Assembly (NCBI RefSeq): GCF_000337035.1
Contig: NZ_AOJL01000046.1
Span: 1 to 55,271, forward strand
DNA: 55,271 nucleotides
Direction: 5' to 3'
Source of the DNA: Halorubrum coriense DSM 10284
Lineage (GTDB): Archaea; Halobacteriota; Halobacteria; Halobacteriales; Haloferacaceae
Positions 17,692-28,339 of the stretch are shown piece after piece. Numbering within the stretch: position 1 is the first letter of the stretch; every line of letters starts with the position of its first letter. The position numbers and the translations under genes are program-made. The notes beneath the pieces were generated by a model that worked only from the letters and a program-made list of their open reading frames with translations, searched no databases and was not told where the DNA came from.

Positions 17692-18930
17692 ATGAGCCGG
17701 GACTACGAGTCGCTCCACGACCCGAACGCGGAGTACACGATGCGGGAGCTCTCCGCCGAGACGATGGGGACCACGGGGACGCGCGGCGGCGACCGAGACG
17801 TCGAGATCACGGACGTGCAGACGACGATGGTCGACGGGAACTTCCCGTGGACGCTCGTGCGCGTCTACACCGACGCGGGCGTCGTCGGCACCGGCGAGGC
17901 GTACTGGGGCGCGGGCGTTCCGGAGCTGATCGAGCGCATGAAGCCGTTCGTGATCGGCGAGAACCCGCTCGACATCGACCGCCTCTACGAGCACCTCATC
18001 CAGAAGATGTCGGGCGAGGGCTCCGTCGAGGGCGTCACCGTCACCGCCATCTCGGGCATCGAGGTCGCGCTCCACGACCTCGCCGGGAAGGTCCTCGACG
18101 TGCCGGCCTACCAGCTGCTCGGGGGCAAGTACCGCGACGAGATGCGCGTCTACTGCGACTGCCACACCGAGGAGGAGGCGGACCCCGAGGCCTGCGCCGA
18201 CGAGGCCGAGCGCGTCGTCGACGAGCTCGGCTACGACGCGCTGAAGTTCGACCTCGACGTCCCCTCGGGCTTCGAGAAGGACCGCGCGAACCGCCACCTC
18301 CGGCCCGGCGAGATCCGCCACAAGGCGGAGATCGTCGAGACGGTCACCGAGCGCGTGAAGGACGAGGCCGACGTCTCCTTCGACTGCCACTGGACGTTCT
18401 CGGGCGGCTCCGCCAAGCGCCTCGCGGACGCCATCGAGGAGTACGACGTGTGGTGGCTCGAAGACCCCGTGCCGCCGGAGAACCTCGAGGTCCAAGAGGA
18501 GGTCACGAAGAACACGGTCACGCCGATCGCGGTCGGCGAGAACCGCTACCGCGTCACGGAGCTCCGCCGGCTCATCGAGAACCAGGCGGTCGACATCGTC
18601 GCGCCCGACCTGCCGAAGGTCGGCGGGATGCGGGAGACGCGCAAGATCGCCGACGTCGCGAACCAGTACTACGTGCCGGTCGCGATGCACAACGTCGCCT
18701 CGCCGATCGCGACGATGGCCGCGACGCACGTCGGCGCGGCGATCCCGAACTCGCTCGCCATCGAGTACCACTCCTACGAGCTCGGCTGGTGGGAGGACCT
18801 CGTCGAGGAGGACGTCATCGAGGACGGGTACATCGAGGTGCCGGAGGAGCCGGGCCTCGGCGTCACGCTCGACATGGACGCCGTCGAGGAGCATATGGTC
18901 GACGGCGAGACGCTGTTTGACGAGGCGTAA
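17692..18930 (+). CDS. gnaD: Enolase-superfamily sugar-acid dehydratase, probable D-gluconate dehydratase
   Basis: 412 residues from ATG 17692 (MSRDYESLHDPNAEYTMREL), the length of the haloarchaeal gluconate dehydratase as I recall it. Mandelate racemase-type catalytic features are visible: the Lys in YDALKFDLD, metal ligands in SFDCHWTF, WWLEDPVPPEN and AVGENRYR, and the general-base region MHNVASPIATM. In haloarchaea this enzyme dehydrates D-gluconate to 2-keto-3-deoxygluconate in the semiphosphorylative Entner-Doudoroff pathway. Related sugar acids such as galactonate remain possible. The promoter carries a 14-bp palindrome, and the TAA stop lies in the loop of a hairpin that starts a repeat array. 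Confidence 0.85.
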   Translation: MSRDYESLHDPNAEYTMRELSAETMGTTGTRGGDRDVEITDVQTTMVDGNFPWTLVRVYTDAGVVGTGEAYWGAGVPELIERMKPFVIGENPLDIDRLYEHLIQKMSGEGSVEGVTVTAISGIEVALHDLAGKVLDVPAYQLLGGKYRDEMRVYCDCHTEEEADPEACADEAERVVDELGYDALKFDLDVPSGFEKDRANRHLRPGEIRHKAEIVETVTERVKDEADVSFDCHWTFSGGSAKRLADAIEEYDVWWLEDPVPPENLEVQEEVTKNTVTPIAVGENRYRVTELRRLIENQAVDIVAPDLPKVGGMRETRKIADVANQYYVPVAMHNVASPIATMAATHVGAAIPNSLAIEYHSYELGWWEDLVEEDVIEDGYIEVPEEPGLGVTLDMDAVEEHMVDGETLFDEA

Positions 18931-19140
18931 GCCGAAGTCAAACTCGATAGACGAGCGAAGCGAGTCTATCGGTGTTCGACTGAGCGGAGCGAAGTCGAGC
19001 CAGCAGCGCGGAGCGCTGCGTTGTTCGACGAGGCGTAAGCCGAAGTCAAACGCGGAAATCTCTGATTTCCGCAGTTCGGTTGAGCGGAGCGAAGTCGAGC
19101 GAGCGACTCGCTGATTTTCGCAGTTCACTCCGTCGCGAGC
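18913..19140. repeat. Hairpin-repeat array overlapping the gnaD stop codon
   Basis: Two modules follow each other with a period of about 100-108 bases. Each has the element gacgaggcgtaagccgaagt (18919 and 19027), a variable perfect hairpin, and then the element tgagcggagcgaagtcgagc (18981 and 19081). The first element is itself a hairpin (gtttgac...gtcaaac with an inner ggc-gtaa-gcc). The variable inserts are cgatagac...gtctatcg (about 18943-18970) and gcggaaat...atttccgc. A further hairpin, gcagcgc-gga-gcgctgc, lies near 19002-19019. The gnaD TAA sits in the first loop. Confidence 0.85.
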
Positions 19141-26408: not shown

Positions 26409-27329
26409 TCACTCGGCGTCGAAGGTACCCGCGGTCAGGTAGCGCTCGCCGCTGTCCCAGTAGACCGTGACGACGAGCGGCTCCTCGCCGTCGAACGCGC
26501 CGCTCTCTCGCAGTTCGGCCGCGACGTCCTTCGCCGCGAGGTTCGACGCGCCCGACGACTGGCCGACCAGAATGCCCTCCTCGCGGGCGAGCCGGCGGCA
26601 CTCGGCCTCGGCGTCGGCCAGCTCGACCGTGTGGACCTCGTCGATCAGGTCGACGTCGAGGTTCGGCGAGACGAACCCCGGGCCCATCCCCTGAAAGCCG
26701 TCGACGCTCGGCTCCCCGCCGGAGAGGACGGCGTTGTCCGCGGGCTCCACGGCGTCGATCCGGACGTCCGGGAAGGCCTCGCGCAGCCGGCGGCCGACCC
26801 CGGTGATCGTCCCGCCCGTGCCGACGCCGGCGACCAGCGCGTCGACGGTGCGGTCGCCCACTTGGTCGAGTATCTCCGGGCCCGTCGTCTCGTAGTGGGC
26901 GCGGGGGTTCGCCGGGTTCTCGAACTGGCGGAGCTGGACGGTGTTCGGCTCGCCTTCGAGCTCGTCCGCCCGGTCCTTCGCGTCCGAGATGTCGCCGTCG
27001 ACGAGCTCGACGGTCGCGCCGTACGCCCGCATGAGCCGGCGGCGCTCGATCGACTTCCCCTCGGGGATGACGAGGGTGACGTCGTAGCCGCGCGCCGCGC
27101 CGACCATCGCGAGGCCGATGCCCGTGTTGCCCGACGTGGGCTCCACGATGCGGTCGCCCGGCTCGATCTCGCCCGCCTCCTCGGCGGCCTCGACCATGTA
27201 CAGCGCGGGGCGGTCCTTCGCTGAGCCGCCCGGGTTGCGGGACTCGACCTTCGCCGCGACCGTCGTCCCCGCGGGCGCGTCGACCCGCACCAGCGGCGAG
27301 CCGAGCGTCGACAGGATGTCGTCGTCCAT
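26409..27329 (-). CDS. cysK: Cysteine synthase (O-acetylserine sulfhydrylase family)
   Basis: 306 residues, the normal length. This PLP enzyme makes L-cysteine from an activated serine and sulfide. The PLP-binding Lys is in NPGGSAKDRPA (about residue 38). The substrate loop is VEPTSGNTGIGLAMVGAARG and the phosphate-binding loop is VAGVGTGGTITGVGR. GQSSGAS appears near the C-terminus. CysK and CysM types cannot be separated safely by eye. It begins a run of minus-strand genes that includes a MOSC protein, a possible sulfur link. Confidence 0.92.
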   Translation of the reverse strand: MDDDILSTLGSPLVRVDAPAGTTVAAKVESRNPGGSAKDRPALYMVEAAEEAGEIEPGDRIVEPTSGNTGIGLAMVGAARGYDVTLVIPEGKSIERRRLMRAYGATVELVDGDISDAKDRADELEGEPNTVQLRQFENPANPRAHYETTGPEILDQVGDRTVDALVAGVGTGGTITGVGRRLREAFPDVRIDAVEPADNAVLSGGEPSVDGFQGMGPGFVSPNLDVDLIDEVHTVELADAEAECRRLAREEGILVGQSSGASNLAAKDVAAELRESGAFDGEEPLVVTVYWDSGERYLTAGTFDAE

Positions 27330-27432
27330 TAGCCGAACCGAGGCGGTCGCGACGCAAAGGCCCCGCGGACTCCGGCAAGCGATGTCGCCCGCGCCGGCGA
27401 AATCCGGTTATAAACGCCTCAGCACGACCGGG

Positions 27433-27450
27433 TCTGTATATAAATAGACA
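27433..27450 (+). promoter_or_regulatory. Strong orphan TATA box
   Basis: tatataaata (27437-27446) is close to the ideal archaeal TATA box and is flanked by gtct and agac, giving a short inverted repeat. A plus-strand transcript would start near 27470, just before the first hairpin. No protein gene lies within range: cysK faces away and the next plus-strand gene begins at 27953. Confidence 0.6.
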
Positions 27451-27469
27451 GCCGGGACCCGAGACTGAC

Positions 27470-27740
27470 GCGGTGGCGCGTGCCTCCGAGCGGCCGATAG
27501 GCCGGGAGGAGCACGCGCGAGGTCGTCGGGCGACGCCCGACTGCCAGAGGGACGCCCGGTCCCTCGCCGGAGTCGCGGCCGTTTAAAAACGGCCGCGACG
27601 AGGCTGGGGAGGTGTGAAGTGCTGTGCGGTACGGGGTGGGACTCGAAGGGGCAGTCGCGAAGCGGGCGCACGCTCGGGGCGGTCCTCGCTCGTTCGCTCC
27701 GCTCACTCGCTGCGGTCCTGCCGTCACCTGCGCCCGCCTC
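27470..27740 (+). ncRNA. Candidate structured RNA or dispersed palindromic element (five hairpins)
   Basis: Five stems follow one another. A: gcgcgtgc (27476-27483) with gcacgcgc (27511-27518), containing inner stems ctcc/ggag and ggcc-gata-ggcc. B: gtcgggc-gac-gcccgac (27525-27541). C: gagggac-gcccg-gtccctc (27547-27565). D: gtcgcggccgtt-taaa-aacggccgcgac (27572-27599), 12 perfect pairs. E: gcgggcgca (27662-27670) with tgcgcccgc (27729-27737). The stretch between D and E (ggtgggactcgaaggggcag) resembles a sequence I recall recurring between haloarchaeal genes. Strand is chosen from the TATA box. It is not 7S RNA, RNase P RNA or tRNA as far as I can tell. Confidence 0.45.
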
Positions 27741-27952
27741 GTGCCTGGGGCTTCGGGGGTACTCGTGTCGACTGACGATTTATAAACAGAACCGTACAGC
27801 CGAGCGGCTGGGCCTTCGGAAGCGTTCGTGACGGGTTTCGGTTTCAGAGCAGTCGGAGCGACGTAACACCGGGCCGTTCGTGCCGCGAACGACCGAGACC
27901 TCGTCTTGCCACCGACGCGCCGTTTACGTGGCTCCGCGACCTACCGAACGCC

Positions 27953-28339
27953 ATGACGCTCGAAACGCTCGCGCCCGCGGACGACGTCGACGCGGCCGCG
28001 TTCGACGACTCCGTTCTCGACGCGCTCGCGGCGGACGACTACGTGTTCAAAGTGTGGGGCGGCGACTGGTGTATCGACTGCCAGCGACAGCTCCCCGAGT
28101 TCGGTGCCGCGCTCGCGGCCGCCGGCGTCCCGGACGACCGCATCGAGTCGTTTCCGGTGACGAAGGGGCCGGACGGGAAGGAGGGCGAACTCGTCGAGGC
28201 GTACGGGATCGAACTGATCCCGACGGTCGTCGTGGAGTCGCCCGACGGCGAGGAGCTCGCGCGGTTCGTCGAGGAAGAAGACGGCTCCATCGCGGAGTTC
28301 CTCGCGACCCGGCTCGCCAACGTCGAAGCGACCGCCTGA
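27953..28339 (+). CDS. Thioredoxin-family protein (TlpA-like)
   Basis: 128 residues. The active-site motif is [15 protein letters not shown] with Cys40 and Cys43 in a C-x-x-C arrangement. The cis-Pro region is [10 protein letters not shown]. There is no signal peptide, so it acts in the cytoplasm as a thiol-disulfide reductant or as a peroxide-linked reductase. The Ile-Asp between the cysteines differs from the usual Gly-Pro and should change the redox potential. ThuA follows 64 bases downstream on the same strand. Confidence 0.88.

Follow-up and report, generated by a model that had tools for sequence, protein, structure and literature searches.

An intergenic region of the Halorubrum coriense DSM 10284 window (the whole 55,271-nucleotide stretch of DNA analysed) belongs to a family of ~290-nt elements that is dispersed at high copy number across the haloarchaea and whose helices P1, P3 and P4 carry compensatory changes and tolerate wobble pairs in a strand-specific manner. 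Copies lie between genes in all gene orientations, mostly at orthologous positions, and among the genomes searched they occur only in Halobacteria. The family appears to be previously uncatalogued, being absent from Rfam and, as far as the literature consulted shows, undescribed as an RNA. From these patterns, we put at roughly one half the probability that conservation acts on the + strand of the family as a folded single strand, in all likelihood RNA, and we infer that a useful RNA fold is the reason why most copies persist. A covarying structured element of most sampled haloarchaeal genomes, at very high copy in Halorubrum, would rank among their most abundant non-coding features. The question, which is testable, is whether more than 100 genes encode a cellular RNA or transposition itself maintains the shape of a mobile element.

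The region is bounded by a cysteine-synthase (cysK)-like ORF starting at 27329 on the − strand, divergent relative to the region, and a thioredoxin-like ORF starting at 27953 on the + strand, both named by resemblance. As the original prediction had stated, no protein gene crosses the structured part. A near-ideal TATA box-like sequence, TATATAAATA, can be read directly at 27437-27446 of the + strand, 33 nt upstream of the conserved 5′ end, and its position is kept in several clade orthologues. The stems of 8, 7, 7, 12 and 9 perfect pairs that had been predicted to follow this box are all present, likewise on the + strand. The first belongs to the P1 hairpin domain (GCGGTGGCGCGTGCC ... GCACGCGC, 27470-27518), in which an 8-bp perfect stem (27476-27483/27511-27518) encloses a covarying 3-bp stem (TCC 27485-27487/GGA 27508-27510), a tandem GA/GA and an apical hairpin. 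Inspection ruled out a kink-turn in P1, since its tandem GA/GA is symmetrical and lacks a 3-nt bulge. Two optional 7-bp hairpins (27525-27541 and 27547-27565), carried by some copies and missing from others, lead to the 12-bp P3 hairpin with its TAAA loop (27572-27599), which varies in sequence among copies and keeps its pairing. The G-rich core that follows (GAGGCTGGGGAGGTGTGA...GGGGTGGGACT, 27600-27643) is the most conserved sequence of the family and is unpaired in the models. The P4 domain (27644-27755) comprises P4a (CGAAG 27644-27648/CTTCG 27751-27755), a GGG/GGG internal loop and P4b, which runs from 27652 with its partner at 27729-27747 and includes nine perfect pairs (27662-27670/27729-27737). 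Overlapping its end is a 3′ repeat zone (27745-27830) with the 3′ end motif CTGGGGCTTCGG at 27745-27756, TTTATAAA at 27779-27786 and a second, degenerate 3′ unit, CTGGGCCTTCGG, at 27808-27819, all on the + strand; such tandem ~57-bp 'R' repeats lie downstream of many copies. The predicted RNA fold of 27460-27745 (-166.7 kcal/mol; z = -2.87 versus dinucleotide shuffles) would, taken alone, be modest evidence against chance. Decisive evidence that the stems are not accidental comes from the hundreds of diverged family copies that keep the same helices with compensatory changes.

The original prediction likened the middle part to sequence that recurs between haloarchaeal genes, and this was right. 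BLASTN, which it had suggested, matched 43 of 59 related genomes with multiple copies in each, and within the window's own genome a 5′ part (27467-27535) and a 3′ part (27596-27660) recur dozens of times around a variable middle. The conserved 5′ part of the family reads GCGGTGGCGCGTGCC...GCACGCGCGAGG, and the next conserved piece is the stem directly before the core; the conserved core, GAGGCTGGGGAGGYGTGAGG...GGGYGGGACTCRAAGGGGCAG, is followed by the long hairpin and then by the 3′ end CTGGGGCTTYGG. Two covariance models, R1 for stem plus core (the middle part) and R2 for P4 alone, could annotate the family across Halobacteria. R1, which matches the window at 27570-27668 with E 3e-25, gives 59 matches in the window's own draft genome, at least 150 copies in each of two complete Halorubrum genomes and 145 in a third complete one. 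It is present in all 46 Halorubrum genomes listed and in 123 of 391 Halobacteria overall, and some distant genera carry 26-66 copies. R2 matches 66 of 393 genomes of the phylum, corresponding to 66 of 81 Halobacteria and 0 of 312 others. Exact-pattern matches among named genomes are nearly all from Halorubrum, and related pieces occur on plasmids of Natrinema, Halobaculum, Halorussus, Haloprofundus, Halomarina and others. The H. walsbyi plasmid PL47, the sole Haloquadratum sequence tested, gave no R1 or R2 match, a result that says little about the chromosome.

In several other genera, two P4 units are joined head to head by a short conserved CCGGCTGACCAACCGG-like spacer and lack the 5′ domain, forming composite palindromes of ~250-400 bp (L418, L419, L420, L421, L422, L426). 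Together with the spread of R2, this arrangement identifies P4 as a widespread module and the 5′ domain as one of several companions. At three loci (L316, L327, L345) the 5′ domain and core are followed by a different 3′ end, GGCAGTAGCTAG, in place of P4.

The covariation analysis that the original prediction had proposed revealed compensatory base changes in P1, P3 and P4 of homologous copies. P1 and P3 change in sequence among copies and retain pairing; pair 6 of P1, for example, is T-A in 90 copies, C-G in 20 and T-G in 4, and pair 3 is G-C in 104 and G-T in 15. P4a, the five-base helix closing P4, appears in Halorubrum copies as CAAA/CTTTG (63) or CGAA/CTTCG (28) with few intermediates (G.U 4, A.C 1), and in other genera as GAAAG/CTTTC or GGAAG/CTTCC. 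The second P4b pair in 104 Halorubrum copies is distributed as C-G 45, T-A 27, T-G 21 and C-A 1, and a P4b pair in the fixed-helix tally as C-G 69, T-A 34, T-G 32 and C-A 1. Across 20 P4 sequences from many genera, 27 pairs were predicted, 23 of which show changes on both sides. The covariation score of 0.596 compares with 0.175 for shuffles (0 of 500 reach the observed value) and at most 0.139 for slid-partner controls; both kinds of control limit, but do not remove, the circularity of a consensus structure predicted from the same alignment as is scored.

Strandedness emerges from the fixed helix positions of 151 Halorubrum copies, where the + strand shows 2969 Watson-Crick, 94 G.U, 26 A.C and 93 other combinations, so that 96% of helix cells are still paired. 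As the copies are related and the counts non-independent, the p-value of 3e-10 for G.U versus A.C serves as a guide only. Since G.U on the + strand is A.C on the other, the asymmetry indicates that the + strand acts single-stranded. Selection thus seems to see the + strand as a single-stranded nucleic acid, most simply RNA.

The window copy is a genuine, partly degenerate member of the family. Its P4 apical segment (27670-27729) lies on the − strand relative to the rest, being inverted with respect to all nine orthologues matched, and over 57 nt it is 100% identical to the opposite strand of one of them (G063). Two P4b pairs are also broken (27655/27744 and 27661/27738). These two defects explain its weak R2 score (25.6 bits on the + strand, 27.6 on the −), and full function may have been lost in this copy.

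The original prediction left a choice between a structured non-coding RNA and a dispersed palindromic element with a promoter of its own. Structure with strand-specific covariation and dispersal have both stood, and the promoter as a family-wide trait has fallen. Of 97 Halorubrum copies, 51 have a TATA octamer (at least 7 of 8 matching) in the 60 nt upstream (0.7 expected), mostly 13-16 nt before the element. At that spacing transcription would start inside the first stem, too close for a transcript containing it. Similar octamers are about as frequent downstream, within 75 nt of 47 of 104 copies and inside the tandem ~57-bp 3′-end repeats, and none was found upstream of 24 copies from other genera. 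The TATA box is therefore a feature of Halorubrum flanks rather than of the family, and a shared promoter at about −27 was ruled out. In the window copy and most clade orthologues, the box stands 25-34 nt upstream, a spacing that fits a start at ~27467-27475, so the box at 27437 may drive transcription of the window copy.

The main rival to an RNA holds that the family is non-autonomous mobile DNA of PATE or REP type, in which P4 and P1 serve as single-stranded DNA hairpins for a transposase acting in trans, structure being conserved because mobility needs it and without any host function. We give this explanation a substantial minority chance. Palindrome-associated transposable elements (PATEs) of Haloquadratum walsbyi, defined by IS605-type-like ends (PMC3119063), are by their published description probably the closest known kind. 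As described there, PATEs are non-coding, dispersed in hundreds of divergent ('heterogeneous') copies and prominently palindromic, with core-deleted terminal remnants, small palindromic inserts and opposite orientations at one site, all of which the present family shares; both also come from the Haloferacaceae. Very high copy number and the head-to-head P4 pairs of other genera fit mobile DNA, as do repeat-bounded core deletions leaving terminal remnants. At the cysK-trx site of one genome (G031), for instance, the core is deleted and the upstream flank is fused straight to a 3′ unit, and the R units belong in the same category. Opposite orientations of the element at one site (in G064 and G027) recall the 'SwitchRepeats' reported for Haloquadratum, and small two-hairpin inserts, restricted to P4 and a single IS200 locus, resemble the reported targeting of PATEs and IS605 elements by SMR-A repeats (PMC3119063).

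Other observations count against mobile DNA. The IS605-like ends that define PATEs were sought without success, as 20 TnpB and 9 Y1-transposase neighbourhoods of four Halorubrum genomes showed no ends like those of the element, and the RNA-like covariation of the family goes unreported for PATEs in the text consulted (PMC3119063). Bacterial REP/BIME/REPIN, ERIC and BOX sequences are likewise high-copy intergenic palindromic repeats, BOX being modular, and the head-to-head P4 pairs resemble REPIN geometry. However, the present family is archaeal, its P4 alone measures ~100 nt and contains conserved internal loops, a GTAG foot was not seen, and no linked RAYT-type (Y1)/IS200 transposase was found at element ends. 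A 100-nt rod with conserved internal loops is more than a hairpin foot needs.

The age of the copies bears on the same question. The element occupies the cysK-trx site in at least 13 Halorubrum of one clade and is missing from others, and the base of P4 among these orthologues (CAGTC/GACTG, CAGCC/GGCTG, CGGGC/GCCCG) has undergone compensatory change. Across 200-kb stretches from four genomes, the majority of copies whose flanks could be located are common to G064, G074 and G027, about half of these are also in G023, and a G023 copy at 2572314 is also carried by relatives. The family is old: most copies have been passed down at their sites, and new gains and losses come slowly. Dead DNA should not remain 96% paired in copies that are mostly old and shared between species, and the paralogues are too diverged for frequent homogenisation. 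PATEs are also marked by a lack of terminal inverted repeats and of target duplication; no inverted ends are evident in the present family, and the empty cysK-trx sites are too diverged for boundaries to be read.

A second alternative is that the element works in cis between genes, as a terminator, insulator or RNA-stability element for its neighbours; this is improbable. Placement between genes and long hairpins would suit it, as would the slightly raised number of convergent sites that is seen when the cysK-trx orthologues are excluded. Yet copies are flanked by genes in all four orientations, and 23 of 109 are antisense to both neighbours by heuristic gene calls from acidic composition, which is the wrong strand for a strand-specific cis signal and speaks against a role as leader, terminator or 3′ UTR. 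No T-run was found after P4. A guide-RNA-like part (omegaRNA) of IS605-type TnpB elements is very improbable and largely refuted: TnpB-type genes are numerous here (24 matches), but the core and the 5′ and 3′ motifs are absent from element-like positions around them, with no core near 20 TnpB loci.

Known structured RNAs offer partial parallels. HEARO, one of the OMEGA RNAs, likewise has a dispersed distribution in some genomes; the present family shares with HEARO/OMEGA RNAs the character of a dispersed structured RNA and differs in that no TnpB is linked to its copies in the TnpB neighbourhoods examined. The large ornate RNAs GOLLD, ROOL and OLE are single- or few-copy and are in Rfam. The family resembles these long non-coding RNAs in its many covarying helices, whereas it is high-copy and matched no Rfam model. 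The original prediction had counted a known Rfam family such as SRP RNA as evidence against itself; the covariance-model search of the region returned none at gathering score, and a permissive search gave one chance-level match (E 9.7). A literature search for the conserved sequence, with thin coverage of subscription journals, retrieved no relevant paper. Conserved Halobacteria itsRNAs of unknown function have been reported (PMC7002113).

The reading that we prefer is a folded RNA acting in trans. Pairing that persists in old, shared and strongly diverged copies suggests selection on the fold in place, and hence an RNA of this kind. The + strand would be transcribed, possibly from the TATA box at 27437 in the window copy and from other promoters or by read-through at other copies, and would fold into P1, P3 and the long, rod-like P4. 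A putative trans-acting partner, probably an RNA-binding protein, could then bind a surface made of the invariant G-rich core and the P4 apical loop (GCAAGCACCGCAG/GAGGAGCGCAGCGAG), and spread to new sites would be rare. The ribonucleoprotein step of this mechanism is tentative and less likely than not. Several observations weigh against an RNA: a copy number above 100 per genome would be unusual in a cellular non-coding RNA and is typical of mobile repeats, the promoter is not shared across the family, single-stranded DNA hairpins would also tolerate G.T, and 12 of 104 Halorubrum copies have a flipped P4 tip, a change at odds with a strict sequence-specific RNA role. A broader proposal is more doubtful still, namely a class-wide superfamily of trans-acting structured RNAs with more than 100 Halorubrum loci per genome, each selected on its fold, which would represent an ancient SINE-like archaeal family recruited to a cellular ribonucleoprotein role and whose G-rich core could form G-quartets at haloarchaeal potassium levels.

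Phage origin was considered and set aside, with no phage matches to the element and only chance matches to the R repeat. The intergenic repeats of virus HF2 are 58 bp and carry promoters (PMC8707807); they are alike to the R repeats in length and TATA box, with no sequence match found. Each tandem ~57-bp 3′-end repeat carries a TTTATAA box (window 27745-27830; G064:C1 near 1667224), with one exact duplication. On plasmids of Halobiforma, Haloprofundus, Halomarina, Halorientalis and Halobacterium DL1 (L340-L344), which represent four haloarchaeal families, a P4-only variant is separated by a few hundred bp from a divergent gene for a conserved ~290-aa OB-fold (RPA-like) protein. This protein was rejected as a general partner because several copy-rich Halorubrum genomes, G027 included, show only a weak ~45-bit match, which is present in nearly all genomes and is taken to be chromosomal RPA.

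Elsewhere in the window, intergenic positions 18900-19110 contain direct repeats (GACGAGGCGTAAGCCGAAGTCAAAC) and short palindromes, with model matches at chance level only. The oppositely oriented elements mentioned above occupy the same intergenic site at G064:C1:1639076 and G027:C1:1214702, and two other species are without the element there. The ~60-bp two-hairpin inserts are of two kinds, GTTCACGAGA..TCTCGTGAGCCAATCAGAACG..CGTTCTGATGACGA and the TCTCGTCATCACGAAAGGCG type. In 800 kb all six lie inside the element's P4, and one is found at an IS200 locus; such inserts were noted at L407:3115-3170 and in the P4 interiors of L002, L007, L017, L057, L086, L096, L315 and L331.
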